DNA from: Candidatus Cloacimonadota bacterium
Lineage (GTDB): Bacteria > Cloacimonadota > Cloacimonadia > Cloacimonadales > Cloacimonadaceae
Reading direction: 5' to 3'
Assembly: GCA_023228285.1 (NCBI GenBank)
Contig: JALOBM010000043.1
Span: forward strand, 1 to 18,248
Length of the DNA: 18,248 nt
Shown here: positions 465 through 12,844 of the stretch, piece by piece
Position numbering within the stretch: the first letter of the stretch is position 1
Layout: each line of letters begins with the position of its first letter
Program-made: the position numbers and the translations under genes
Notes under the pieces: model-generated
The model's input: only the letters and a program-made list of their open reading frames with translations
Told to the model about the DNA's origin: nothing
Databases searched by the model: none

Positions 465-491
465 ATCTGCGTGATCTGCGTAATCTGCGTG
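465..491. repeat. 9-nt tandem repeat ATCTGCGT(G/A), three copies
   Basis: Three head-to-tail copies, ATCTGCGTG, ATCTGCGTA and ATCTGCGTG, at 465-473, 474-482 and 483-491. They end 9 nt before the 76-bp dispersed element copy A. No coding role is evident. Confidence 0.8.
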
Positions 492-500
492 CTATTCCAA

Positions 501-576
501 GCAGTGCCGAACTGGATATAAAGCCGTTATCAAGCAGTGGTCACTCGATGATAACCCGATGATATCTGCTTCATAT
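501..576 (+). repeat. 76-bp dispersed element, copy A
   Basis: The reverse complement of this segment matches 12724-12799 at 71 of 76 positions by eye, with no gaps and the first 43 identical. It contains two near-copies of ATATCATCG/TTATCATCG about 11 nt apart. It carries no open frame. It sits between the 9-nt tandem repeat and the operon promoter, about 45 nt upstream of the -35 box. Confidence 0.9.
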
Positions 577-583
577 CAAGAGG

Positions 584-623
584 AAGCAAAAAGCATCAAT
601 GTGGAAACTTGCACATTTTGCTT
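584..623. promoter_or_regulatory. Nested dyad next to the -35 box, possible operator
   Basis: AAGCAAAA (584-591) is the exact reverse complement of TTTTGCTT (616-623). Inside it, ATGTG (599-603) pairs with CACAT (612-616). The right arm runs into the -35 hexamer at 622-627. This could be a repressor or activator site for the operon. No known operator is recognised and the pairing may be incidental. Confidence 0.35.
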
Positions 624-649
624 GACACGATATCATCGCAATTTATGTT
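622..649 (+). promoter_or_regulatory. Sigma-70-type promoter of the rimP-nusA-infB operon
   Basis: A perfect TTGACA -35 box (622-627) is followed after 16 nt by TATGTT (644-649), a 4-of-6 match to TATAAT. Transcription would start near 656, giving a leader of about 215 nt before rimP. It is the best promoter match upstream of the twelve-gene run, and no other obvious promoter is seen inside the tightly packed operon. Confidence 0.6.
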
Positions 650-655
650 GTCTCA

Positions 656-744
656 AATAGTAGATTCCGCCCAAGATGGCGGCTAAGTTGTTATGGTTCC
701 CGCATTTGCGGTTTTGATAGCTACAAGGGTTAGCTATTTTTTTT
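656..744 (+). ncRNA. Structured leader of the operon, possible attenuator or small RNA
   Basis: From the predicted start near 656 the RNA would fold into three hairpins: CCGCC/GGCGG (667-682), CCGC/GCGG followed by TTTT (700-715), and a terminator (717-744). GGCTAA at 681-686 can alternatively pair with the terminator's 3' arm (730-735, one G-U pair), which would disrupt both the first hairpin and the terminator. This is the arrangement expected of an attenuator, or of a small RNA with partial read-through into rimP. It matches no riboswitch family I know. NusA autoregulates its own operon in other bacteria, so it is a natural candidate effector, but that is inference. Confidence 0.45.
717..744 (+). 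terminator. Intrinsic terminator in the operon leader
   Basis: A perfect 7-bp stem, ATAGCTA (717-723) with TAGCTAT (731-737), has a 7-nt loop and runs directly into eight Ts (737-744). It lies between the operon promoter and rimP, so transcription of the whole operon must pass it. Confidence 0.75.
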
Positions 745-871
745 GATGTGAAACAGATGTGTTTGCGCTCATGGGGACTTGCTCTCCGGGCACAGTCACA
801 AGAGATTTACCGAGTATTTGCCGGTAGAATGGATATGAACAGCGGTTTTTCCGCAAAGATTAGAGGTTTAT

Positions 872-1351
872 TTGCAATACTTTAGAACTCAGATTGAAGA
901 CATCGCCAAGAAGATCTGCGCAGAAATGCATCTTGCCCTGTACGACATTGATGAAAAGATGAGCGGCAAGGGGCGGATCATCATAGTGTACCTTACCAAG
1001 ATCGGCGGAGTAACGCTGGATGAGTGTGCCCGTTTCAGCCGGGCTCTGAGTGATGAGTTGGAGACCTTTGATCTGATTCCGGAGCGCTATTTTCTGGAAG
1101 TGTCCTCTCCCGGTTTGGAGCGACCGCTAAAGCTGAAGAGTCACTGGGTGAGTGCCATCAATGAGAAAGTGGCGGTTCAATATAGCGAAGAGGAAGAGAA
1201 GCGCTCTGTGATGGGTACTTTGCTGGAGGTAAATCAGGATACCGTGGTTTTGGACGATCGCGGGGAGCGGATCGAGATTGCACTGAAATCGATCTCCAGA
1301 GCCAAAACAGTATATTTGGGAATAGTCCGAGGTGAGAACAATGAACGCTAA
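872..1351 (+). CDS. rimP: Ribosome maturation factor RimP
   Basis: A 159-residue cytoplasmic protein of normal RimP length. RimP assists assembly of the 30S subunit, acting on the S12/S19 region of pre-16S particles. The family hallmark YFLEVSSPGLERPL lies at about residues 73-86, at the end of the N-terminal alpha/beta domain. An Sm-like barrel follows (about 95-150, including VMGTLLEVNQDTVVLDD). The start is TTG at 872, with AGAGG at 862-866 correctly spaced; no in-frame ATG fits. It is the first gene of the operon and its end overlaps nusA by 11 nt, the classic rimP-nusA order. Identification is firm. Confidence 0.95.
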   Translation: MQYFRTQIEDIAKKICAEMHLALYDIDEKMSGKGRIIIVYLTKIGGVTLDECARFSRALSDELETFDLIPERYFLEVSSPGLERPLKLKSHWVSAINEKVAVQYSEEEEKRSVMGTLLEVNQDTVVLDDRGERIEIALKSISRAKTVYLGIVRGENNER

Positions 1352-2579
1352 TATTCTGGATGCGGTTATCAAGCTGGCCGCGATCAAACAGTTGGATGGA
1401 GCTTTGATCCAAGAGATCATCGTGGAATCCATCACAAATACTTTGTCCAAGAAATTGGGGCCTGAAAACGAACTGGAAGTATATATCGATGAAGCGGTGA
1501 GCGGCATAAAGGTTCGCTTTAAATGCCAGGTGGTGGAATTGGAAAATGAACTAGGCGAGATATCTTTGACCGATGCCCGGGCAGACTTTGATCCCCGCGC
1601 TCAGTTAGGCGATTACATCCAAAAAGAGATGTCGCTGTATGAGTTCGAGCCCAAATTGGTAAAAACAGCGCAAAAGATTATTCAAGATCGTATCCGCAAT
1701 CTGGAAGATGAAAAGATACAGAACGACTTCAATAAACAGAAGCACACTATCGTCTCCGGAAAGATAAAATCCATCGACGAAAACAACGGCGGATACCGCA
1801 TAGACTTCAGCTACACAGATGCGCTATTGCCGCTGGACGAACAGATTGAGAACGAATTTTACCGTGTGGGCGACAATATCAAAGCCTACGTGACCAATAT
1901 CCGCAATGGAAATAAAGGTGTGACGGTGATCCTCTCCCGCACGAATCCTGAATTTGTGAAAAAGCTGTTCGAAGCGGAGATCCCCTCCATATTCAACGGT
2001 AAGATGCACATCCGCAAGATCGTGAGAGAGCCCGGAATCCGCACCAAAGTGGAATTGGAAAGCATGGATGAGAGCTTGGACCCCATCACAGAATGCGTGG
2101 GCCCAAAAGGTACCAGAATCGACAGTATCCGCAGAGAACTGCACGGCGAACAGATCGACATCGTGGTACATAGCGAAGACATGGAACAGATGGTTCAAAA
2201 CGCCCTGGGCATCAGCAATGCCAAGCGCGTGGTGGTCGAACGCGGCCGCGCCGCTAGTGTGATCGTGGATGAAGCGGACAAAGTGGTGGCCATAGGCAAG
2301 CAAGGCAAGAACGTGCGTTTGGCTGCCAAGCTTACCGGACTCAAAATCGACATCTTTACCAGCGAAGAATATGAAGAAAAGATGTCCAAAGAACGTCGCA
2401 CCGTAAGCCATATCACCGAACTGGACGGAGTAAGTCCCAAGATTGCCGAAGTGTTGCGCAATGCAGGATATACAAGTGTTCAGGATATCTTCCAGGCCTC
2501 TGTGAATGAACTGGCATCCCTGGAAGGCATGGGCCAGAAAACAGCGGAAAAGCTGAAGGAAGCTGCTAAGTATTTCTAA
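1341..2579 (+). CDS. nusA: Transcription termination/antitermination factor NusA
   Basis: A 412-residue RNA polymerase-binding factor that modulates pausing, termination and rRNA antitermination. In order it has the N-terminal polymerase-binding domain (1-125), an S1 domain (about 134-200), KH1 (about 225-290, with GPKG near 254), KH2 (about 297-340, with GKQGKN near 319) and a helix-hairpin-helix domain (about 355-412, with LDGVSPKIAEVL and LEGMGQKTAEKL). It has none of the further C-terminal acidic repeats seen in Escherichia coli. I chose ATG 1341 rather than GTG 1332 because GAGGTGA sits just upstream and the family begins this way. It overlaps the end of rimP and ends in TAATG with the next gene. 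Confidence 0.96.
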   Translation: MNANILDAVIKLAAIKQLDGALIQEIIVESITNTLSKKLGPENELEVYIDEAVSGIKVRFKCQVVELENELGEISLTDARADFDPRAQLGDYIQKEMSLYEFEPKLVKTAQKIIQDRIRNLEDEKIQNDFNKQKHTIVSGKIKSIDENNGGYRIDFSYTDALLPLDEQIENEFYRVGDNIKAYVTNIRNGNKGVTVILSRTNPEFVKKLFEAEIPSIFNGKMHIRKIVREPGIRTKVELESMDESLDPITECVGPKGTRIDSIRRELHGEQIDIVVHSEDMEQMVQNALGISNAKRVVVERGRAASVIVDEADKVVAIGKQGKNVRLAAKLTGLKIDIFTSEEYEEKMSKERRTVSHITELDGVSPKIAEVLRNAGYTSVQDIFQASVNELASLEGMGQKTAEKLKEAAKYF

Positions 2580-2812
2580 TGACAAATATGAATAGTAAAG
2601 CCGGACACATCCCCATTCGCAGCTGTGTAATCTGCAAGACAAAGCGGGCACAGAAAGAGCTGCTGGGCTTCATGATGATGCCCTCGGGGATCGTGTATGA
2701 CCTCGCTCGCCGGCTGCAAGGGCGCAAGCAGTATGTGTGCCCCTCCAGGGAATGCGTTGCCCTATTGCCCAAATGGCAGAAAAGACGCGCAAAAGGGAGG
2801 TCAGCGAAATGA
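2579..2812 (+). CDS. ylxR: YlxR/RnpM family RNA-binding protein (DUF448)
   Basis: A 77-residue basic protein of the YlxR fold, always found between nusA and infB in many bacteria. The hallmark RSCVICK lies near residues 14-20, and the second signature, GRKQYVCPSRECV (usually GRGAYVC), lies near 48-60. The C-terminus is strongly basic (KWQKRRAKGR). In Bacillus the family has been linked to modulation of RNase P; here the role is inferred from family and context. The start ATG overlaps the nusA stop by one base (TAATG) and the stop overlaps ylxQ by ATGA, so translation is probably coupled. Confidence 0.9.
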   Translation: MTNMNSKAGHIPIRSCVICKTKRAQKELLGFMMMPSGIVYDLARRLQGRKQYVCPSRECVALLPKWQKRRAKGRSAK

Positions 2813-3126
2813 CAGAGCTGAATCCCAAGATATTGAATCTGATGCAGTTTGCCCGTAAGGCAGGGAAACTGGTGGCGGGAGTGGATGCCTGCATAAGAGG
2901 CATGCATCACAGGCATATACACTTGATTGTGATAGCCGGAGATACCTCGGAGCGTACCGCAGAACGGATTCGCTACGAGATCAAAGAAGACGGTAACAAG
3001 TTGCTGATTATCCGCGCAGGAGAACAGGCAGAGATAAGCGCTGCTTTGGGATTGCCCGTCACCGGAGTGTTTGGCATCAGCGACAAAAATTTTGGTGCCA
3101 AGATGATCGAATATTGGCAGGCGTGA
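2809..3126 (+). CDS. ylxQ: YlxQ-type L7Ae/L30e-family RNA-binding protein
   Basis: A 105-residue protein with the L7Ae core: LMQFARKAGKLVAGVDAC at about 10-27, then HLIVIAGDTSERT and LPVTGVFGISDKNFGAKMI. Members bind kink-turn RNA, and those between ylxR and infB are the YlxQ group. I start at ATG 2809 (MTELNPKIL) because GGGAGG at 2795-2800 precedes it and the family aligns from there; the longer frame from 2737 only runs into ylxR in another phase. It overlaps ylxR by 4 nt and lies directly before infB. The exact RNA target is unknown. Confidence 0.9.
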   Translation: MTELNPKILNLMQFARKAGKLVAGVDACIRGMHHRHIHLIVIAGDTSERTAERIRYEIKEDGNKLLIIRAGEQAEISAALGLPVTGVFGISDKNFGAKMIEYWQA

Positions 3127-3137
3127 GTGGAGGAACC

Positions 3138-5768
3138 TTGCAGATACGAGTACATGAATTAGCCAAGGAACTCAAGATCAGTACAATGGCTCTAAAAAAG
3201 CATCTTACAGATCTGGGTGTGGTAACTAAAAGCCACATGAGCTTTATCGAAGAAGAAGTCGCGGATAAAATCCGTGCAAAATACAACGAACAGGTTGATG
3301 CCGAAAAAAGAGCGGAAAAAGACCGTAAAAAACTGATTGAACTGCGCCAGCAGGCAAGGAAAAGCGAAGCTAAGGCCGCTGCCAAGGCAGAAGAAATAGT
3401 ACCTACCGAACCGGAACCGGTACCTGAAGTAGAAGAGCCTAAAACGGAAAAAGCCAAACGAACCAAGAAAGCTGCCAAGTCAGATGAGCCCGAAGCAGAA
3501 GCAGAAGATACCGCTATAGCGGAAGAAAGTTCCGAAGCTCCTATGGTACCTGCAGAAAGCATTACTCCGGAAGAAGCCAAACCATCGTATCAGGAATTGC
3601 AGGAACAGAAAGCCCGCGAAGAAGTAAAAAAGAAGCGTGAATCCCTGGATATCCGCGTGCCTTATAAGCAGGCTACTCCGCCTCCAAAGGCCAGAGAGAG
3701 CAAGAGTAAAGCGGTGGAGAAACCCCGCAAAAGCCGTGCAACAGCCACCCACACTCCCCCTCCCTCTCCACCCGTGGTGATTCCGGAGAAAAAGGAGATC
3801 GAAAAGAAGTTTGGCAAGGCTAAACCCGTTCACGATGAACTGGGCGAAAAGAGTAAGCACAAAAAAGCTCTGCTCTCCAGTAAAAAGGGTAAAATCAAGG
3901 TTTTGGAACCCACAGAAGTTGACGAAGCCGTAATCTCCAGAAACATCAAGAAAGTGATGCAGAAAACCACGAAGCGCAAAAAGTATCATCGAGAAGCGCA
4001 AGTAGTGGAAGACAACAGCAGTGAGATCATCATTCGCGAATTCACTTCGGTGTCCGAGCTGGCCAAGATCATGAATGTATCTCCCAGCGAGATTATCTCA
4101 AAGTTCTTTATGATGGGGCAGCTTGTTACCATGAACCAGCGTTTGGATCGGGATTCATTGGAGATGATTTGCGATGAGTTCAAGGTAGATTTCCGCTTTG
4201 AAGATGAGTATGGCTCAGAGCTTATTGAACAAGAAATGGACAAATATGCTGATGTTCCCGAAGTGCCCAGGCCTCCTGTGGTTACTATTATGGGTCACGT
4301 GGACCACGGTAAGACCTCGATTCTGGATTATATCCGCAATGAAAACATCGTAGCCGGAGAATCCGGAGGCATCACTCAGCACATCGGTGCCTATCAGATA
4401 GAAATAAACAACTATAAAATAACTTTCCTGGATACCCCCGGTCACGAAGCATTCACCGCTATGCGTGCCCGTGGCGCCAATGTTACAGATATCGCCGTGA
4501 TCGTGGTTGCCGCTTCCGAAGGGGTGAAACCTCAGACCCGCGAAGCTATCGACCATGCCCGTGCAGCAGGAGTCTCGCTCATTATTGCGATTAATAAAAT
4601 TGATTTGCCTGAAGCGAATGTAGATAAAACCATCGCTGATCTGCTGGAAGCTGGCGTTTATCTGGAACAATACGGCGGTGATGTACCATGGTGCAAAACT
4701 TCCACCGTGACCGGAGAAGGCATCCTGAATCTGATAGAATTGATCCTTTTGACAGCGGAGATGCTGGATCTGAAGGCGAAAGAGAACATTCCGGCAGAAG
4801 CTATTGTAGTGGAAGCGCAGAAAGACTCCCGCATGGGATCAGTAGCTACCATCCTGATGCAACAGGGAACCCTAAGACGAGGTGATATAATCGTTTGCGG
4901 CGCAGTTAGCGGTAGAGTTCGGCGTATGGAGAATGCGAGCGGTCTGGAAATGAAAACGCTATACCCCAGCGATGTGGCACGAATCTACGGTTTATCCGAT
5001 ACACCCAAGGCTGGTGACGTCCTGAACCAGGTGGATAGTGAGAGAACTGCGCGGGCAATTTCGACCGAGCGTCAGCAAATCCGCATGGAACGAGAGAAAT
5101 ACCAGAACAAATCCAGTCTGCAAAACATCTTTGCCCGCATCAAAGAAGAGCAGGTAAACACATTGAACATAATCCTGAAGACAGATACGGACGGCTCGGC
5201 TGAGGCAATAGCGGATAGCTTGCAAAAACTTGCTAATGAGGAAGTATCGGTTAAAATTATTCACAAGAGCGTGGGTGGTATCTCCGAAACTGACGTATCA
5301 CTAGCTTCGGCTTCGGATGCCATCATCTTGGGATTCCATGTTCGTGCTACTCAACAAGCTCGTCGCCTGGCGGAAGATGAAGGAGTTCAAATACAGCTCT
5401 ATCAGGTAATCTACGATGCCATAGACGATATCACGGCAGCTCTGGAAGGAATGCTGGCTCCCACGATTGAAGAACAAAATATAGGCAGCGCCACAGTAAA
5501 ACAAGTGTATAAGATCAAAAAGCTTGGTACCATCGCCGGTTGTCAGGTGGATCGCGGAGTGATCCAAAGCAATTGTCTGGTACGTATATATCGCAACGAT
5601 GTGCTGATTAACGAAGCCAAGCTAAGCTCTTTGAGGCATTATAGCAACGATGTGAAAGAAGTCCGTGCGGGTTCCGATTGCGGCATCACTCTGGAAAACT
5701 TCTCCGACATCAAAGAAGGCGACGTTTTTGAAGCATACATCGAACAAGAGGTAGCCAAGAAACTCTGA
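3138..5768 (+). CDS. infB: Translation initiation factor IF-2
   Basis: An 876-residue GTPase that brings initiator tRNA to the 30S subunit and promotes subunit joining. It has a first IF2_N domain (QIRVHELAKELKIS, residues 2-50), a long Lys/Glu/Pro-rich linker (about 55-290), a second IF2_N domain (about 300-360), and a G domain with GHVDHGKT at 386-393, DTPGHEAF and NKID. Domains II to IV follow to the C-terminus. TTG 3138 is chosen because GGAGG lies 4 nt upstream and the family begins M-x-I-R-V-H-E-L; GTG 3123, which overlaps the ylxQ stop, and TTG 3114 are alternatives. Its stop overlaps the rbfA start (TGATG). Confidence 0.96.
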   Translation: MQIRVHELAKELKISTMALKKHLTDLGVVTKSHMSFIEEEVADKIRAKYNEQVDAEKRAEKDRKKLIELRQQARKSEAKAAAKAEEIVPTEPEPVPEVEEPKTEKAKRTKKAAKSDEPEAEAEDTAIAEESSEAPMVPAESITPEEAKPSYQELQEQKAREEVKKKRESLDIRVPYKQATPPPKARESKSKAVEKPRKSRATATHTPPPSPPVVIPEKKEIEKKFGKAKPVHDELGEKSKHKKALLSSKKGKIKVLEPTEVDEAVISRNIKKVMQKTTKRKKYHREAQVVEDNSSEIIIREFTSVSELAKIMNVSPSEIISKFFMMGQLVTMNQRLDRDSLEMICDEFKVDFRFEDEYGSELIEQEMDKYADVPEVPRPPVVTIMGHVDHGKTSILDYIRNENIVAGESGGITQHIGAYQIEINNYKITFLDTPGHEAFTAMRARGANVTDIAVIVVAASEGVKPQTREAIDHARAAGVSLIIAINKIDLPEANVDKTIADLLEAGVYLEQYGGDVPWCKTSTVTGEGILNLIELILLTAEMLDLKAKENIPAEAIVVEAQKDSRMGSVATILMQQGTLRRGDIIVCGAVSGRVRRMENASGLEMKTLYPSDVARIYGLSDTPKAGDVLNQVDSERTARAISTERQQIRMEREKYQNKSSLQNIFARIKEEQVNTLNIILKTDTDGSAEAIADSLQKLANEEVSVKIIHKSVGGISETDVSLASASDAIILGFHVRATQQARRLAEDEGVQIQLYQVIYDAIDDITAALEGMLAPTIEEQNIGSATVKQVYKIKKLGTIAGCQVDRGVIQSNCLVRIYRNDVLINEAKLSSLRHYSNDVKEVRAGSDCGITLENFSDIKEGDVFEAYIEQEVAKKL

Positions 5769-6259
5769 TGAAGAACTATCGCATACCCAGATTGCAGGAA
5801 GAACTGAAGAAGATCTTCAACATCACACTCAGCAAGAAACTGGGGGATCCCATGTTGGCTTGGGTAAACATCACGGATGTAGTGATCTCCAAAGATCTGC
5901 GCTATGCAAAGATATACTTTTCCCATTACAACAATCCCGCCTCGCACAACGAGATCCGGGAGCACCTGATGAAGACAAGCGGATTCTTTAAGAAACAAAT
6001 TGCAGGAGCACAAATTATGAGAACAATACCTGAACTCTCATTCTTCTACGATGATACCGAAGACCGCGCCGCGAAAGTGGAAGCCCTTTTGGCTGGTATC
6101 AAAGACGATTATGACGATGCTGACGATTACGATCCGGACATCGATATCGACGATTATCTTGATGATGATGAATACTATGAGTATGATGACGAAGACCTCG
6201 ACGAAGATGATTATGAAGACTTTGACGATGACGACGACGATGATGATGAGGATGATTGA
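5768..6259 (+). CDS. rbfA: Ribosome-binding factor A with a long acidic tail
   Basis: Residues 1-112 are a complete KH-type RbfA (RIPRLQEELKKIF at the start, ISKDLRYAKIYFS in the middle, IPELSFFYDD near 87-96). RbfA binds immature 30S subunits near helix 1/helix 44 of 16S rRNA. The family is usually about 115-135 residues. Here a further 51 residues follow with no basic residue and about 37 Asp or Glu, ending in a run of eight Asp then EDD. The tail is encoded by GAY-rich DNA (6110-6259). The ATG overlaps the infB stop. The core identification is firm; the tail's role is unknown. Confidence 0.93.
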   Translation: MKNYRIPRLQEELKKIFNITLSKKLGDPMLAWVNITDVVISKDLRYAKIYFSHYNNPASHNEIREHLMKTSGFFKKQIAGAQIMRTIPELSFFYDDTEDRAAKVEALLAGIKDDYDDADDYDPDIDIDDYLDDDEYYEYDDEDLDEDDYEDFDDDDDDDDEDD

Positions 6260-6298
6260 GCTACCCTGTTGAATCACAACGATCACGACATACAATTG

Positions 6299-7285
6299 AT
6301 GAATAAAGACATATCGAGCGACTTCTTTGCCTTGGTGAAAGAGGCTGAGAGCATCGCGTTGACTACTCATATCCATTCGGACGGCGACGGCATGGTGACC
6401 TGCTTTGCCTTGCAGGAGATCATGAAAGCTTCCGGTTTCGACTCTACCATCGTTACCGACGGGGAAGAGCTGGATCGCTATGCTTTCCTGATGCGATACA
6501 CAAAGGTGCAAGCTTTTCACGAAGACATGGACTTTGGGCTGGTGATTGTGCTGGATTGCAATAGCTACGACCGCATCGGTAACCGGCATACACTTCTGGA
6601 CAAAGCCCGGAAAGTGGCAGTATTGGATCACCATATGATAGAGCATAATCACATCCCTGCAGATCTGCAACTGGTGGATTACAGCTATCCTTCGGTGGGA
6701 GCGTTGATCTGGCGCAGTATGCGAGAGACAATTCAAAAGCTGAATCCCGCTGTTCGGAAATATGTGGCAGATTGTGTGTATGTAAGCATTCTGAACGATA
6801 GCAACAACTTTAGTAATGCCAATACCAATGCCACCATGTTCGAGATCTCCGCAGAGCTTGCCCAGGAAGGCATCAAAGCCCACGAGCTGCACATGGCTTA
6901 TCTGCAAAATCACAGTGCCAAAGAAATGCTCTATGTGGGCAGAAGTCTATCCACAATCCGCCTGTTCGAGGATGGCAAGTACCTGTTTCTGCACTCCGAC
7001 AAAGCTTTGGCGGAAGAATTGGATGTGGATCCCTCTGCATATATGAGCGTAACTCGTTGGGTACAGGGCATATCTGGCCTCAGTGCCATCGCTTATTTTC
7101 GTGAAGATGAACCCGGAATGTGGAAAATATCGCTACGTTCTTTAATCCTGGATATGCACGAAGTAGCAGCTCGGCACGGAGGCGGTGGGCATCGCCAAGC
7201 ATCCGGATTGACCTTGATGGGCAGTCTTCAGGAAGTGCAGGAAGTCATTTTGCACGATCTGAAGCAGGCCAATTCCTTATCATGA
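6299..7285 (+). CDS. nrnA: DHH/DHHA1 phosphoesterase, NrnA-like nanoRNase/pAp phosphatase
   Basis: A 328-residue DHH-family protein that would degrade 2-5 nt RNA leftovers and/or dephosphorylate 3'-phosphoadenosine 5'-phosphate. Metal-binding motifs are intact: THIHSDGDG at about 23-31, VIVLDCNS near 80, the DHH signature VAVLDHHMIEHN near 107-118, and the DHHA1 substrate loop GGGGHRQASG near the C-terminus. It replaces oligoribonuclease in many bacteria with this operon. ATG 6299 fits the family start; TTG 6269, in the same frame and 9 nt after the rbfA stop, is possible. Neither has a clear ribosome-binding site. The end overlaps truB by ATGA. Confidence 0.9.
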   Translation: MNKDISSDFFALVKEAESIALTTHIHSDGDGMVTCFALQEIMKASGFDSTIVTDGEELDRYAFLMRYTKVQAFHEDMDFGLVIVLDCNSYDRIGNRHTLLDKARKVAVLDHHMIEHNHIPADLQLVDYSYPSVGALIWRSMRETIQKLNPAVRKYVADCVYVSILNDSNNFSNANTNATMFEISAELAQEGIKAHELHMAYLQNHSAKEMLYVGRSLSTIRLFEDGKYLFLHSDKALAEELDVDPSAYMSVTRWVQGISGLSAIAYFREDEPGMWKISLRSLILDMHEVAARHGGGGHRQASGLTLMGSLQEVQEVILHDLKQANSLS

Positions 7286-8154
7286 ATTCGTTCTTCCTGA
7301 TCGACAAGGAGGCGGGTATCTCCTCCTTCAAAGTGATTAGTTCCCTACGCAAGATATTGGGCATCCGCAAGATAGGGCATAGCGGCACCCTTGATCCATT
7401 TGCCACTGGACTCCTAATCTGCGCTACCGGTCAATATAGCCGATTGTTAAAATACGCTTTATCCCAAGACAAGGTCTATGAAGTGGAGTTACTGCTAGGC
7501 AGCAAGAGCAGTACCGGCGATCCTGAAGGAGAGATCATAGAGGAAACGGAGCTTCCGGAGAGCCTCAGCATCCCTGCCAATCTCGAAACGAAAGTTAGGG
7601 CTCTGCAAGAACTGCCCATTCCGAGATACTCCGCTGTGAAGATTGCAGGTAAGAGGGCATACAGCCTTGCCCGGCAGGGGATTGAGGTGGACATGCCCAT
7701 GCGTGAGGTGAAGATACTGGATTTTGAACTCTTGAGCGGAATCGAAGATAAACGCTTGTGCTATCGAGCTAAAGTATCCAAAGGCACTTATATCCGCGCC
7801 CTAAGTGAATACATCGCCGGTGAATTGGGATGTGTGGGAATGACTACTCAGCTTCGCAGATCCGCAATCGCAGACATCAGTGTGGATGAAGCATGCATTG
7901 TGGAAGATCTGGCAAAGGACATACACTCCAAAACGTTTGATGTGCACAGGATACTCCATTATCTACCTGCAATCGAGCTTTCCGAATCGCAGTCAAAGAG
8001 CTTTTTGCATGGTATGAGACTGCCGACAGATGCTGCTGATGCCCCGGATACAGCGATATATTCTGCAAATGGACTCTTTCTGGGTATAGCGAAGGTAGAA
8101 TCCCTTGAGATTATCCCACAATTGGTGATGGACGGAGGCAAGACATGTGCGTAA
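7282..8154 (+). CDS. truB: tRNA pseudouridine(55) synthase TruB
   Basis: A 290-residue enzyme that converts U55 of the tRNA T-loop to pseudouridine. The catalytic motif GHSGTLDPFATGLL lies at 32-45, with the nucleophilic Asp at 38; the usual HTG is HSG. Other motifs are the ELPIPRYSAVKIAGKRAYSL region and SKGTYIRAL. The C-terminal part is short but present. The start is ATG 7282, which overlaps the nrnA stop by 4 nt; the open frame continues upstream but only as an alternative phase of nrnA. The stop lies 10 nt inside ribF. TruB next to ribF is a common arrangement. Confidence 0.95.
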   Translation: MNSFFLIDKEAGISSFKVISSLRKILGIRKIGHSGTLDPFATGLLICATGQYSRLLKYALSQDKVYEVELLLGSKSSTGDPEGEIIEETELPESLSIPANLETKVRALQELPIPRYSAVKIAGKRAYSLARQGIEVDMPMREVKILDFELLSGIEDKRLCYRAKVSKGTYIRALSEYIAGELGCVGMTTQLRRSAIADISVDEACIVEDLAKDIHSKTFDVHRILHYLPAIELSESQSKSFLHGMRLPTDAADAPDTAIYSANGLFLGIAKVESLEIIPQLVMDGGKTCA

Positions 8155-9041
8155 TCAGTCTGGGTACTTTCGATGGCCTTCATTTGGGTCACCGCAAGCT
8201 TCTGGATAGAGTTCGCGAACTTGCTTCTACCGAATGCTTGAAATCCGTGATCATCACATACAAAGATCACCCGGCCTTTATCCTGAATCAAAGAGCTCTG
8301 CCCAAATTGCTCTGTCCCTCGGAAGTGAAAGAGCAGGAATTGAAGCGATTGGGCATTGACCAGGTGGAAATGCTCGATTTCTCCCAGGACTTAGCTGAAA
8401 CCTCTGCACTAGATTTCCTGCAGAATGTGCTCATTCCGCGTTGGCGGCCAAAAATCATCGTAGTAGGTCACGATAGCCATTTCGGCAAAAACCGGGAAGG
8501 CGATCGCAGCTTTCTGGAGCGATTTGCATCGCGTTTCAATTTCCGGGTGGAGTATGTAGAACCGCAGTTATTTGAGGGCAAACCGATCAGTAGCAGTATG
8601 ATCCGAGACTTTCTGAGCCGGGGACAGATCGAAGAAGCCAACCATCTCTTGGGCAGGAGTTACCGTCTTTCAGGCAAAGTGGGGAAGGGTTTGGCCAGGG
8701 GCAGGGAGTTTGGTTTCCCCACCGCAAATCTGATCCTGAGCAATCCGCACCAGCTTATCCCCGCGGAAGGGATATATCTCAGCAAAGCACATTTGGAGCA
8801 AGCGTCTTTTTTTAGCTTGACCAATATCGGGAAGTCTCCTACAGTGAAACACACAGGAATCGTGGAGATAGAAACTTTTCTGATCGATTTTACCGGCGAT
8901 ATCTACGACGATAATATGCAGGTGGAATTGTTACATTATCTCAGGGAGGAAAGGATGTTTGCAAATACTGACGACTTGGTCGCAGCCATGAATCGCGATC
9001 TGGAACGTGCCATCGCTCTGGTAGCGGAGTTGCAAGCTTGA
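8145..9041 (+). CDS. ribF: Bifunctional riboflavin kinase/FAD synthetase RibF
   Basis: A 298-residue enzyme that makes FMN from riboflavin and then FAD. The N-terminal nucleotidyltransferase has GTFDGLHLGH at residues 7-16 and the ISSSMIRDFLSRGQIEEA motif. The C-terminal flavokinase begins around residue 169 with LLGRSYRLSGKV and contains GREFGFPTANL, then FLIDFTGDIYDDNMQVEL. GGAGG at 8134-8138 precedes ATG 8145 with 6-nt spacing. The gene overlaps truB by 10 nt and the next gene by TTGA. Both catalytic halves look intact. Confidence 0.95.
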   Translation: MCVISLGTFDGLHLGHRKLLDRVRELASTECLKSVIITYKDHPAFILNQRALPKLLCPSEVKEQELKRLGIDQVEMLDFSQDLAETSALDFLQNVLIPRWRPKIIVVGHDSHFGKNREGDRSFLERFASRFNFRVEYVEPQLFEGKPISSSMIRDFLSRGQIEEANHLLGRSYRLSGKVGKGLARGREFGFPTANLILSNPHQLIPAEGIYLSKAHLEQASFFSLTNIGKSPTVKHTGIVEIETFLIDFTGDIYDDNMQVELLHYLREERMFANTDDLVAAMNRDLERAIALVAELQA

Positions 9042-10906
9042 AACGCAGCCTTATCATCCTGGCATTGCTCTTCAGCTATCTGTATGGGATAGTATGCATA
9101 TCTGCAGACGGAGAGCAGATCCCGCAGGACCGCGAGTATCACTATTATCTGCATAATAATGCACATGACTACAGCTTTTACGGTGCCAATAAATGGGCGG
9201 TGAGATTCGATTTTAGCCAGGCATATCCTCTTATGAGCAACGTGAACTTCACCGCTAGCGGAGCCAGACTGTGGTTTCCGAATCCTGGAGGACAAGTAAC
9301 GGTAGAACTTTGTACGGACAATGTATCTCAACCTGGTAGCGTAGTATCCGTGCAAACGGTGGAAGTATCATCCCAGCAGATTGACATCGCCTTTCCCTCC
9401 ACCAGCACACATGATATTGCCTGGCTGGTGGTTACATACGAGACAAACATGCAATCCCGCTATGTAGCGGCTAGTGCGGGAGGCGGTGATAATAGCTTTT
9501 ACATGACAACCGTGGGCGATCAGTTTTACCTGTCTTCACTTAGCAATGCCGGTTTTAACTGTGAACTGCTGTTTGGTTTGTTAGGCGACTTCACTCACAC
9601 AGAGGTGGATCTGGAATTATGTGATTTTTACCTTGAGGGAGATCTGTTGCCAGGTAGCAGAGTGTATCCCAGATTCACAGGTTACAATCACAGCAATCAG
9701 ACACTGGATGAGGTGGGCTTGAGCATCACGATGAACCGGCCGGGAGAACCCCGGTTTGACAGTCTCTATATTGCCTTGCCTCAGAGCCTTGCCCCACTTA
9801 GCAGCTTTGACTATACCAGTGATCTGCAGTTTATAGAGCTGCCCTCAGATCCATTGCAACTACGTCTTGATATGAAGCTGATTAGTGAAATTGCCGAGAG
9901 TGATTCTCTCTCCGGCAATAACAGCTTCAACTGCTTTTTCAATATATTTGCAGATCCCATGCCAGGTCAAGTGGTGGAGAACTTTCTGCGTACTAGCGGT
10001 GACAATGCTATTTCCACGATCCAGTCTCCATATTTGAACCGTGATTTTCATGTGCTGGACTACTATCCTCTGTTATCTGACCCATTATCAAATCTGGGAG
10101 CAATGCAACGCTTCAATTGGTATGGTTTCAATGCGTTACCTCAAACTATCGGTAATGGACACAGCCGCATTATCGGGCTTACGCAAGCTTACGAAAGCAG
10201 TTTTGCCGAGCTATTGGACGACATCTCTGCCGATCGCACCTTTATCTCTGAATCCTCTTGCCGGTTGGATTCCATTCCGGAGTCCGCAAACATGTATCTT
10301 AGCGTCAGTTTGCTGAATCAGAACACGAGCTTGTATGAGTCCAATCTGGAAAACATCACACTGGATTCCCGTTTGTTTGTGGGTCTTTTTGCCAAACCAA
10401 GCGCAGAAAGTACACAGAAATACAGTTTATTACAGTGGATTTGTTTTGCCGATACCATAAATACGGCCCTCCAACCGGAAGTAACTGTGGAAAAGACTTA
10501 CAGTGTAAGTTTTAGCAATCTGTTCAATGACAGTGCAGAGACAGATTACCGCATCTACTATTGGTTGCAGGATCAGTACGGCGGCAGAATTCATTTTATG
10601 AATTTCTACGATTTTGACCCCCAGCAGTATACTTCAAATGCGGATTTATATACACCAAGCCTGAGCTTTAGCGCTTATCCCAATCCGCTGAGGCAGGATG
10701 AATATCTGCATCTCAGCATAAAAGACGCTACTGCAGCGAAGATAAGCATTTACAACCTGAAAGGTCAGCGGATCCACAGGCAAAACGACATCACGGGGAA
10801 ACTGGATCTATGCGGAAAGCTCTTCCCAGCATCAGGCATTTACTTTATCCGTGTGGAACAAAGCGGTAAGGCCCCTCAAACGAAGAAAATAAGCATTATT
10901 AAGTGA
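9038..10906 (+). CDS. Secreted protein with type IX-like C-terminal sorting domain and thioredoxin-like (Omp28-like) region
   Basis: A 622-residue exported protein. Residues 1-24 (MKRSLIILALLFSYLYGIV) form a signal peptide. The last 76 residues (from YPNPL at 547) fit the Por/type IX C-terminal sorting domain: a beta-rich segment with ISIYNLKGQRI and GIYFIRVEQSG, ending in basic and aliphatic residues. Residues 1-300 look like beta-sandwich extracellular material. Residues about 312-400 resemble a thioredoxin/Omp28-like domain (VVENFL, then RFNWYGFNALPQT at 359-370, with a likely cis-Pro at 368), but no CxxC is present. TTG 9038 has GGAG 8 nt upstream and overlaps the ribF stop by 4 nt. Substrate or partner is unknown. 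Confidence 0.75.
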   Translation: MKRSLIILALLFSYLYGIVCISADGEQIPQDREYHYYLHNNAHDYSFYGANKWAVRFDFSQAYPLMSNVNFTASGARLWFPNPGGQVTVELCTDNVSQPGSVVSVQTVEVSSQQIDIAFPSTSTHDIAWLVVTYETNMQSRYVAASAGGGDNSFYMTTVGDQFYLSSLSNAGFNCELLFGLLGDFTHTEVDLELCDFYLEGDLLPGSRVYPRFTGYNHSNQTLDEVGLSITMNRPGEPRFDSLYIALPQSLAPLSSFDYTSDLQFIELPSDPLQLRLDMKLISEIAESDSLSGNNSFNCFFNIFADPMPGQVVENFLRTSGDNAISTIQSPYLNRDFHVLDYYPLLSDPLSNLGAMQRFNWYGFNALPQTIGNGHSRIIGLTQAYESSFAELLDDISADRTFISESSCRLDSIPESANMYLSVSLLNQNTSLYESNLENITLDSRLFVGLFAKPSAESTQKYSLLQWICFADTINTALQPEVTVEKTYSVSFSNLFNDSAETDYRIYYWLQDQYGGRIHFMNFYDFDPQQYTSNADLYTPSLSFSAYPNPLRQDEYLHLSIKDATAAKISIYNLKGQRIHRQNDITGKLDLCGKLFPASGIYFIRVEQSGKAPQTKKISIIK

Positions 10907-10912
10907 TATAGT

Positions 10913-11863
10913 ATGGAAGAACACATTTTTGTAGCAGACATGCATCAGCATGAGAACAAAGAGATTAGCGGGTTCTATCTGGCTCAGGAGAAAGAACTGC
11001 GAGAGGGTAAGGGCGGCAGCTTTATCCGCATAAAGATTCAGGATAGAAGCGGTTATGTCACGGCTAATGTATGGAAAGACGCTGCTAAGACCAGTGAACT
11101 TTTCGATGCCGGAGATGTGGTTCACATCAAAGCTCAAGTGGTGAATTACAAAGGCCAGATTCAACTGAGTATCCAACAATTGCGTTTTGCGGATAAAAGC
11201 GAATTTGATATTGGTTTGTTTGTGGCAAAAAGCAGATTTACTCCGGATTTTCTGGCAGAACGCTTTTGGGAATTTGTGGATAAAGTAGAACATGAATATC
11301 TCAATCGACTTTTACACGAGATCTTCGATGATAAACCGTTTTTCCAGCGTTTTTTGGAAGCCCCCGCCGCTAAAAGCTGGCACCACAATTATGTTCACGG
11401 GCTCATCGAACATACCGTAGCCGTAGCTGCCCTGTGCGAGTTTACCTCTACCCAGTATCCGGTATCCATGGATCTCATGCTCTGCGGAGCCTTACTGCAT
11501 GACGCCGCCAAACAGAGAGAATACCATGGAAAGGCCAGTATAGATTTTACCGATGAGGGACGCCTATTGGGGCATCTCAGTATGGGTGATCAGATGGTGG
11601 TCGAGGCTGCATCCCGGATCCCAGGATTTCCTGAAGAAGTGTTGTTAAATCTGCGTCATCTCATCCTTTCCCATCATGGCGAATACGAGAAAGCATCTGT
11701 GCGCCTGCCGCAAACTCTGGAAGCACTTCTGCTGCACCATTGTGACAATCTGGACGCCCAAAGCGCCGGAGTGTGTCAATTGCTCGCCGCCGCTCCTCCC
11801 GATGCAGTCTGGAGTGAGTACGACAAGCTGAACAACCGCTATTATCGCATTGTAAGAATTTAG
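10913..11863 (+). CDS. yhaM: YhaM-type 3'-5' exoribonuclease (OB fold + HD domain)
   Basis: A 316-residue protein built like YhaM/CbfA: an N-terminal OB-fold nucleic-acid-binding domain (about 15-92, including GGSFIRIKIQDRSGYVTANVW) and an HD phosphohydrolase domain (about 155-285). Metal ligands are visible at H162/H167, H196-D197 (ALLHDAAK), H254-H255 and D278. YhaM degrades RNA and single-stranded DNA from the 3' end. The gene starts 6 nt after the preceding stop, with only a weak ribosome-binding site, and ends 4 nt before the next gene. It is one of three hydrolase genes in this operon. Confidence 0.85.
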   Translation: MEEHIFVADMHQHENKEISGFYLAQEKELREGKGGSFIRIKIQDRSGYVTANVWKDAAKTSELFDAGDVVHIKAQVVNYKGQIQLSIQQLRFADKSEFDIGLFVAKSRFTPDFLAERFWEFVDKVEHEYLNRLLHEIFDDKPFFQRFLEAPAAKSWHHNYVHGLIEHTVAVAALCEFTSTQYPVSMDLMLCGALLHDAAKQREYHGKASIDFTDEGRLLGHLSMGDQMVVEAASRIPGFPEEVLLNLRHLILSHHGEYEKASVRLPQTLEALLLHHCDNLDAQSAGVCQLLAAAPPDAVWSEYDKLNNRYYRIVRI

Positions 11864-11867
11864 GCTT

Positions 11868-12644
11868 ATGTTCCAAACCTCCGTACTTGCCAGCGGCAGC
11901 AAAGGTAATTCGATCCTCGTGCGTAGCCGGGATACAGGGATTATTTTGGATGCAGGGATCAGCATGAAGCGGATTTGGGAAGCTCTAGACACACTTAGAA
12001 TCCAGCGCAGCATCATCAAAGCCGTAATAGTGTCCCACGAGCATTCCGATCATACCCGTAGCGCCGGAGCGCTGTGCCGCAGCCTGAAAATCCCGCTCTA
12101 CATTTCTCCAGATACTTTTGCCTATAGCTCGCACAGACTGGGTAGCGTGGATGAGCGTCTGTGCTATTTTGACGCTGGAACAGAGTTTCTGATTGGAGAC
12201 ATCCTGATACAGCCTTTCCGCTCTTCACACGATGCGGTGGACAGCTGCAACTTTACCTTTGAACATGATGACCGGAAGCTGGGTGTAGCCATCGATCTGG
12301 GGTACTTTTCCAAACTGACCGTAACCAAACTGAGTGATGTGCATACTTTGGTACTGGAAAGCAATCACGACCTGCAGATGCTGATGGACGGCCCTTACGA
12401 CTGGAATCTGAAGAAACGTGTGAAAAGCGAACACGGACACCTTTCCAACGAACAAGCGGTGGGACTTCTCTCCCAAGTGCTGCATCCGGGATTGAAAAAC
12501 CTGGTGCTGGCTCACCTTTCAGAAACCAACAACCGCCCCGATCTGGCATATCAGACGATGAACGAGTATCTGCAAACCATCCGTAGCGACATCAACCTCA
12601 TGGTGGCAGATCAGTATTGTCATACTCCACTGGTGGATATCTGA
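11868..12644 (+). CDS. yycJ: YycJ/WalJ-type metallo-beta-lactamase fold hydrolase
   Basis: A 258-residue metallo-beta-lactamase-fold enzyme. It begins with the family motif LASGSKGNS (7-15) and carries the metal motif SHEHSDH at 56-62, a further ligand in FRSSHD near 122-127 and a late His in LVLAHLSE. In Firmicutes YycJ (VicX/WalJ) is a 5'-3' exonuclease that accompanies the WalRK system; no such system is near here, so the housekeeping DNA or RNA role is inferred only from the family. It is the last gene of the operon. No clear terminator follows; the 76-bp element copy B lies just downstream. Confidence 0.85.
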   Translation: MFQTSVLASGSKGNSILVRSRDTGIILDAGISMKRIWEALDTLRIQRSIIKAVIVSHEHSDHTRSAGALCRSLKIPLYISPDTFAYSSHRLGSVDERLCYFDAGTEFLIGDILIQPFRSSHDAVDSCNFTFEHDDRKLGVAIDLGYFSKLTVTKLSDVHTLVLESNHDLQMLMDGPYDWNLKKRVKSEHGHLSNEQAVGLLSQVLHPGLKNLVLAHLSETNNRPDLAYQTMNEYLQTIRSDINLMVADQYCHTPLVDI

Positions 12645-12844
12645 GCAGGCTCTGAGCCCAAGCCGCTCCTCCATTTACAGCATCCGTCGTTCAGTCTCAA
12701 TCTTCCCCCTCTGAGCTTACTATATATGAAGCAGATATCATCGGGTTATCATCGAGTGACCACTGCATTATAACGCGTTTATATCTAGTTCGGCACTGCC
12801 GGATATATAGGGGGAATATCCAGGATATATAGTCTGAAACTCTG
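12645..12844. other. Convergent intergenic gap with the 76-bp element
   Basis: This 200-nt gap lies between the end of the plus-strand operon and the end of priA. It holds GGCTC/GAGCC (about 12648-12658, no T-run), copy B of the dispersed element, and GGATAT/ATATCC (12801-12821). No recognisable intrinsic terminator is present on either strand, so transcription of the two units may be ended by Rho or by these weak structures. Confidence 0.6.
12724..12799 (-). repeat. 76-bp dispersed element, copy B (inverted relative to copy A)
   Basis: It matches the reverse complement of 501-576 at 71 of 76 positions by eye without gaps. Its edges are flanked by CTATATAT (12720-12727) and ATATATAG (12803-12810), an 8-bp inverted pair that copy A does not share. 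GGATATATAG is also repeated directly at 12801-12810 and 12823-12832. It lies between convergent genes and contains no open frame. Confidence 0.9.

Follow-up and report, generated by a model that had tools for sequence, protein, structure and literature searches.

The 18,248-nucleotide stretch of DNA analysed here (the window), which is C5:1-18248 of a Candidatus Cloacimonadota genome assembly (G000), holds a gene cluster in the order rimP, nusA, L7Ae-like, infB, rbfA, DHH-family, truB-like, ribF-like, type IX secretion system (T9SS)-sorted protein, OB/HD protein and metallo-beta-lactamase fold (the truB-like and ribF-like labels were given by eye from the translation). The cluster is bracketed by two inverted copies of an intergenic element built of 11-bp iterons: copy 1 lies upstream of rimP, and copy 2 between the cluster's final gene and priA, which is convergent. 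As an earlier note on this DNA had reported, positions 501-576 and the reverse complement of 12724-12799 are identical at 71 of 76 positions, with 43 identities in a row; a BLAST search with copy 1 against its own genome finds the second copy with an E-value of 5e-27. The match is real, but the element is longer than its 76 bp, since the family model R1 extends past it on both sides (Table 1). The ATATCATCG/TTATCATCG duplication seen inside it is likewise real and belongs to a regular 11-bp iteron array.

The two stretches are members of a genome-wide repeat family and not an isolated pair. In the assembly of 2,057,537 bases (90 contigs, 97% complete), a BLAST search with copy 1 as query returned 49 matches, which fall at 40 places (40 of 143 candidates scored), and a core pattern allowing up to 3 mismatches gave 110 matches (56 forward, 54 reverse) against 0 in the control, each of the 100 matches listed being at a different place. 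Model R1 returned at least 150 matches at, by our own count, at least 130 distinct places, all with E < 1e-15. Contigs C1-C5, scanned in full (507 kb), contained 40 copies scoring 46-120 bits, together with one additional place scoring 7, whereas the reversed control reached at most 6.3; from this density we estimate about 160 copies genome-wide. The possibility that only these two copies exist, which would have spoken against a repeat family, thus fell away. A scan of the window against Rfam at E up to 1 matched no family (whether Rfam includes the enterobacterial repetitive intergenic consensus (ERIC) discussed below was not checked), plasmid and phage records held no match to copy 1, and viral contigs held no match to two exact patterns, which would miss diverged copies. 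Many G000 contigs stop 200-500 bp from a copy, C42, C52 and C63 at both ends, and the assembly seems to break near elements.

The element is about 120 bp long; each arm is an array of three to four 11-bp iterons, and the two arms stand inverted around a short centre whose asymmetry is conserved. An alignment of 97 unique copies, made from 129 hits by removing duplicates of overlapping loci and without the copies found later, is gap-free over core columns 20-105, and 11 rows have a single gap outside the core. The left-arm consensus of this 97-copy profile is GTGyyGAAgCw-GATATmAAGCy-GTTATcAwsCw, followed by the centre GTGnyCAC; the right arm is the inverted version of the left, with ATCG in place of the left-arm AAGC, and the profile has no conserved GTAG or GTGG head. 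Self-identity at a lag of 11 was 0.54 in G000 (18 copies on C1) and 0.48 in the same-genus relative G003, and at a lag of 22 it was 0.46 and 0.40, respectively, with other lags from 6 to 21 at or below 0.33 (for the G000 copies, at or below 0.31). Helically phased 11-bp iterons of this kind are a feature of parC-type sites. One copy in a further relative, G020, is short by exactly 11 bases.

Near the centre, several oppositions of the two arms are conserved as mismatches (C.C in 89, G.G in 87 and A.A in 87 of the 97 copies). Most opposite positions pair at the rate expected from the composition of their two columns, and only a few pair above it (columns 34/87, 0.60 versus 0.47; columns 20/101, 0.62 versus 0.45). 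A hairpin kept by selection for pairing is therefore unlikely, and phased half-sites on duplex DNA fit; as far as the alignment goes, the near absence of covariation and the conserved mismatches favour a protein site on duplex DNA over an RNA hairpin. We also considered a coding peptide, which was dropped because the partial open frame has stops in some copies and, by eye, the changes do not fall on third positions.

Table 1 Positions in the window of the two element copies, their parts and the neighbouring gene cluster
Feature	Position	Strand	Basis and context
Copy 1 of the element	487..599	+	Upstream of the rimP-nusA cluster, intergenic; dyad centre 540/541; profile match 487-599, R1 match 491-596
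Copy 1, left-arm iteron 3, GTGCCGAACTG	504..514	+	11-bp register of the 97-copy profile
Copy 1, left-arm iteron 2, GATATAAAGCC	515..525	+	97-copy profile, 11-bp period
Copy 1, left-arm iteron 1, GTTATCAAGCA	526..536	+	97-copy profile, 11-bp period
Copy 1, centre, GTGGTCAC	537..544	.	GTGNYCAC in the family; 97-copy profile
Copy 1, right-arm iteron 1, TCGATGATAAC (reverse complement GTTATCATCGA)	545..555	-	97-copy profile, 11-bp period
Copy 1, right-arm iteron 2, CCGATGATATC	556..566	-	97-copy profile, 11-bp period
Copy 1, right-arm iteron 3, TGCTTCATATC	567..577	-	97-copy profile
Copy 2 of the element	12700..12816	-	Between the metallo-beta-lactamase-fold gene and priA (convergent); dyad centre 12759/12760; R1 match
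Copy 2, two inner iterons (12764-12774, 12745-12755) and centre (12756-12763)	12745..12774	-	Alignment with copy 1, 97-copy profile
Gene cluster between the copies	872..12644	+	Neighbour, outside the element

Other features lie close to copy 1 in the same intergenic stretch. A tandem tract, GATCTGCGTAATCTGCGT (467-492), adjoins it, and a GATCTGCGT-like word adjoins 14 of the 97 copies; a lone iteron-like GATATCATCGC stands at 629-639, some 90 bp from the copy 1 centre. Further repeated words (CTTCGGCCTGTTGAACG and GCAGTGCTGCAG-like) occur at 200-340, with similar words beside some other copies, and a stem followed by a run of T at 140-180, apart from the element, resembles an intrinsic terminator.

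Copies are placed between genes. On C1-C5, where 86-89% of the DNA is coding, all 40 copies are intergenic by our own gene calls (an open reading frame and codon-usage script, used throughout) and none lies in a predicted gene, which is what an intergenic repeat family of the type of repetitive extragenic palindromes (REP), as the earlier note had suggested, would show. Divergent genes flank 14 of them, co-directional genes 18 and convergent genes 5, with 3 at contig edges, and 14 of the 18 co-directional copies are, by our own count, closer to the 3′ end of the upstream gene. A run of T within 35 nt outside the element was found on 2 of 80 sides, compared with 9% of random intergenic 35-mers, so the element is no intrinsic terminator; the lack of a covarying stem and the 14 of 40 copies between divergent genes also speak against the transcription end that had been proposed. 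In the relatives, all 30 loci (24 places) of G020 and all 24 peaks of a genome of a third genus, G018, are likewise intergenic.

Neighbouring copies keep apart. The 35 gaps on C1-C5 have a mean of 12.2 kb, a minimum of 5.04 kb and a coefficient of variation (CV) of 0.42, whereas uniform placement gives a CV of 0.90 and in 0 of 20000 runs reached the observed CV or minimum; placement restricted to intergenic DNA (thresholds of 100 to 300 bp) gave p <= 5e-4. Against null models with a dead zone of 4, 5 or 6 kb around each copy, p for the CV in G000 was 0.005, 0.045 and 0.23, respectively. The strong signal is therefore avoidance, and regularity beyond avoidance is weak. On 25 further G000 contigs, 43 gaps among the matches listed have a minimum of 5.4 kb; they were computed from hand-entered, rounded centres of the core-pattern and R1 matches listed, of which the R1 matches cover 37 of the 40 full-scan copies on C1-C5, so that unlisted copies could shorten some of the 43, and contigs with a single copy yield no gap. 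Of the 35 neighbour pairs on C1-C5, 22 are oppositely oriented (minimum gap 6.8 kb) and 13 point the same way (minimum 5.0 kb); because avoidance holds for both, recombinational loss between direct repeats is not sufficient alone as an explanation.

The same architecture, with species-specific iterons, is present in further species and genera of one Cloacimonadota family. By letters the element is scarcely visible outside its species: BLAST across 39 relatives matched only G003, of 11 relatives in the same genus the G000 model detected G003 alone, and a joint model gave weak matches in the others. A detector that scores the palindrome and the 11-bp period, with no reference to letters, explains these weak matches, as relatives carry the design in other letters. 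On the first 100 kb of C1 it gave 9 peaks of at least 50, all known copies; codon-shuffled controls reach 45-52, so single peaks of 50-53 are doubtful. It found 7 places on 137 kb of G005, with gaps of 11-33 kb (one extra peak is, by eye, at a tRNA-like sequence), and the same design with other letters in G011 and G020. In G020, a single contig of 2,246,820 bases, a pattern (76 matches, control 1) and the model R3 (88 matches) agree on 44 places, and of 8 detector peaks on 100 kb, 4 are members of the R3-confirmed family. At another G020 locus (L293, C1:58557), a peak of 52 has letters unlike those of the 44-copy family and is perhaps a second family or chance. G018 carries three sequence families, with the iterons ATCACAAGGGG, CAAGCAGGATA and GATCAAGAGCA.

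Upstream of nusA, where copy 1 of the window stands at 0.8 kb, 6 of 16 named loci, all from metagenome-assembled genomes of Candidatus Cloacimonadota (Cloacimonetes) and some ending within 1 kb, score at least 50 at 0.7-1.2 kb: one is strong (67, HGW-Cloacimonetes-3), five score 50-57, and the other ten score 47 or less. On 88 kb of G008 there was one doubtful peak (52 versus 51 in the shuffle). For other families of the order, 92-100 kb from each of three genomes gave no peak in G026, three peaks of 51-52 in G028 (shuffles up to 50) and six peaks of 51-55 in G031 (shuffle 50), of which three fall in coding DNA; apart from one G031 place, none of these stands clearly above the shuffles. That place (L329:14420, score 55), the best in G031, has an 11-bp direct repeat, ATTATGCAACA, and some dyad symmetry; given this repeat, restriction of the element to one family is not established.

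A minimum distance recurs in the relatives. G003, scanned with its own model, has 36 copies on 513 kb, and its 25 gaps have a minimum of 6.2 kb and a CV of 0.71. Among the 44 places of G020, entered by hand, the minimum gap is 10.5 kb, a value found in 0 of 20000 uniform runs. Pooled over the three families of G018 (list and family labels also entered by hand, the ambiguous peak C2:379 excluded, three peaks at 130-146 bp from a copy merged with it), 15 gaps range from 4.5 to 11.2 kb with a CV of 0.24, and compared with the only null used here, uniform placement, p for the minimum was 2e-4 and the CV was reached in 0 of 50000 runs. The ten gaps between copies of different families start at 4.5 kb. 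The density is about one copy per 5-15 kb in G000, G003 and G018, and sparser in G005 and G020. The three merged G018 peaks are palindromic, of unassigned sequence, and lie at L346, L351 and L353, beside CAAGCAGGATA-family copies.

Positions are partly common to G000 and G003. Where a gene side carries a G000 copy (31 sides), the orthologous G003 side has one in 17 cases, as against 11 of 114 sides without (p = 2.8e-7) and 9 of 41 sides with at least 100 bp of intergenic DNA (p = 0.004). This test includes loci fetched because they hold a copy; restricted to contigs, it compares 9 of 14 with 11 of 103 (p = 2.5e-5), with 9 of 36 for sides whose intergenic DNA is at least 100 bp (p = 0.012) and with 7 of 17 for those with at least 200 bp (p = 0.18). 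As the sharing shrinks against long intergenic sides, it partly reflects a common preference for long intergenic regions. The distances to the gene at the 17 shared sides agree within 5 bp at 3 (p = 0.013) and within 30 bp at 5 (p = 0.06). Core identity at the 14 shared places is 38.8 of 66, compared with 39.3 for random pairs: between G000 and G003, place and letters have come apart.

We tentatively favour, at a little less than an even chance, the reading that the elements are DNA-binding sites between transcription units, probably with a structural job. An oligomeric DNA-binding protein would cover each iteron array and form a nucleoprotein complex between neighbouring transcription units; selection would keep such sites at intervals, and the letters of all sites would drift together as the specificity of the protein and the turnover of copies change. 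Our guess is that the job would most likely be to separate supercoiling or contact domains, or to anchor the DNA; control of any single promoter, or inversion of the operon in the window, would not be the likely job. Such sites would account for the phasing, the gap-free core, the intergenic place and the avoidance across families. Of the topology mark that the earlier note had offered, this upholds a "perhaps", alongside the intergenic repeat family. It is also conceivable, although on balance we doubt it, that the elements form a chromosome punctuation of one Cloacimonadota family, in which 11-bp iteron arrays between transcription units are read by one or more putative fast-evolving DNA-binding proteins, the design, place and minimum spacing being kept while the code is rewritten in each species and co-resident codes respect one another's spacing.

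Several observations weigh against sites kept at intervals by selection. With a 6-kb dead zone the leftover regularity in G000 is not significant; one G003 gap measures 52.7 kb; copies are thinly spread in G020 (median gap 38 kb, the largest 176 kb), where the CV of 0.84 is not unusual (p = 0.15), leaving the minimum gap alone as unusual; and in G018 three peaks of unassigned sequence lie 130-146 bp from a copy, while the first 43 kb of its contig C2 have no clear copy. When the comparison is limited to sides with 200 bp or more of intergenic DNA, the excess of shared positions is no longer significant (7 of 19, p = 0.17); 14 of the 31 gene sides with a G000 copy are not shared with G003; and the 14 shared places show random orientation, with agreement in 5. 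Last, 21 of the 97 G000 copies share 95% identity or more with another copy, and 13 of the 97 sit inside composites of about 280 bp with inverted-repeat ends like CTAGTGTCATGTCAAG...CTTGACGAGTCACTAG (CTAGTG...CACTAG).

Some of these points would suit the main rival reading, a non-autonomous mobile element, similar to a miniature inverted-repeat transposable element (MITE), with a transposase that binds the iterons and inserts into intergenic DNA, the minimum spacing being set by target immunity and not by selection. Tn7 shows target immunity. The near-identical copies (for 33 of 97 another copy is at least 90% identical) and the composites imply that copies spread recently in G000, and the random orientation at shared places and the minimum gap of G020 without regularity point the same way; cis-immunity of Mu is described in the accessible part of a published account (PMC7350765). 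Yet inspection by eye of both ends of the 13 composites showed no target duplication; the viral, plasmid and phage searches above found no copy; positions are partly common to the two species; and G003 kept its spacing without recent copying, the best pair among its 36 copies being 0.70 (among 24 in G020 it is 0.86). A search for Y1_Tnp, the only transposase family searched, gave one match in the assembly, in which a gene could be missed, and its 2-kb locus holds no element copy, with a best model score of 1.5 bits; a link to a Y1 transposase of the REP-associated tyrosine transposase (RAYT) kind was dropped on this account. Immunity of a single transposase, which fits the signs of copying, the within-family avoidance and the sparse G020, would not keep the ten between-family neighbour pairs of G018 at least 4.5 kb apart. 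We consider a mobile element unlikely as the explanation, though by no means far-fetched, and it need not exclude binding sites, as sites could arise from a mobile element and be retained afterwards. The composites, at L074, L093, L094 and other G000 loci, have ends resembling terminal inverted repeats (TIRs) and outer arms of exchangeable types; the single Y1 (IS200-like) transposase match, L133 (G000:C46:297-554), is near a contig end.

We give little credence to an element of REP or ERIC type acting as RNA or as a single-stranded hairpin, for example by stabilizing mRNA ends: the imperfect palindrome, the 14 of 18 co-directional copies nearer the upstream gene's 3′ end and the few over-paired columns would suit it, but pairing is mostly at the level of column composition, several conserved oppositions are mismatched, copy 1 folds with z-scores of only -0.8 (DNA) and -1.4 (RNA), an RNAalifold run on 30 copies yielded -0.42, divergent genes flank 14 of 40 copies and the window has no Rfam match. 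Another chromosome-maintenance site (for segregation, replication or condensin loading), with iterons bound as in plasmid partition or replication sites, seems quite improbable; the 11-bp iterons resemble those of plasmid parC bound by ParR, and copies are spread across the whole genome, but there are more than 100 with no visible clustering, and known sites of this kind are fewer. Dispersal and number (more than 100) were also the reason for dropping integron attC and dif-like sites from consideration. That the two window copies are a recombination-site pair inverting the 12-kb operon, as the earlier note had entertained, is very improbable indeed: they are inverted, but the element occurs more than 100 times, and since 22 of 35 neighbour pairs are inverted and 13 direct, the spacing of the family would by itself produce an inverted pair about 12 kb apart; a special link to the operon is not supported.

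If binding sites spaced and dedicated in this way exist between genes, topological barriers could be readable from sequence. In the E. coli nucleoid, according to the accessible part of a review (PMC6907758), topological domains are variable in size, barriers are randomly placed and their identities are to be established. That letters differ at more than 100 sites between two species while places are often shared raises the question of concerted evolution or of coevolution of sites and protein. If the element is mobile instead, the between-family avoidance would require a new kind of immunity.

Among known systems, the nearest kind is REP elements and bacterial interspersed mosaic elements (BIMEs), which are extragenic, species-specific and coevolve with RAYT transposases, as outlined in the part of the source consulted (PMC2817692). 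Judged against that outline, the Cloacimonadota element shares the more than 100 extragenic imperfect palindromes, the species-specific sequence and a suggested role in chromosome organization; unlike REP sequences, which are about 20-40 bp long with a GTAG or GTGG head and often clustered, it consists of about 120 bp of 11-bp iterons and is solitary, with a minimum spacing and little covariation, and, unlike in REP/RAYT systems, no inverted copies flank the sole Y1_Tnp gene of the assembly. A second comparison is with ERIC, treated with other small mobile repeats in a source that we cite for its accessible part (PMC2229807). The present element agrees with ERIC in being an imperfect palindrome of similar length that is intergenic and has many copies, and differs in that its design stays while its sequence differs between species. 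ERIC sequences are imperfect palindromes of about 127 bp, intergenic and present in tens to hundreds of copies, and we know of no iteron structure or spacing rule for them.

The parC site bound by ParR has two arrays of helically phased 11-bp iterons with a centre between them, at one locus per plasmid; the element shares the phasing and the two arrays, but is found at more than 100 dispersed chromosomal sites. The sites of matS, parS, Noc and SlmA are dispersed, short single sites of widely conserved sequence for chromosome-organizing proteins, and the element resembles them in its dispersal and differs in its long arrays and in letters that change with the species. With MITEs it has in common that it is a non-coding repeat, and immunity of the Mu type, as far as the accessible part of that account goes (PMC7350765), would explain the avoidance of close neighbours; its dyad symmetry runs throughout, with TIR-like ends seen in the 13 composites, and neither a target duplication (by eye, in the composites) nor a transposase or autonomous partner (within the Y1_Tnp search) was found. 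Unlike Mu-type immunity, the avoidance also holds between different sequence families in G018. Judged by title and abstract opening, none of the papers that searches of the open-licence literature retrieved deals with such an element in Cloacimonadota, or with evenly spaced or 11-bp iteron palindromes, and the family may be an unrecognized set of chromosome marker sites.

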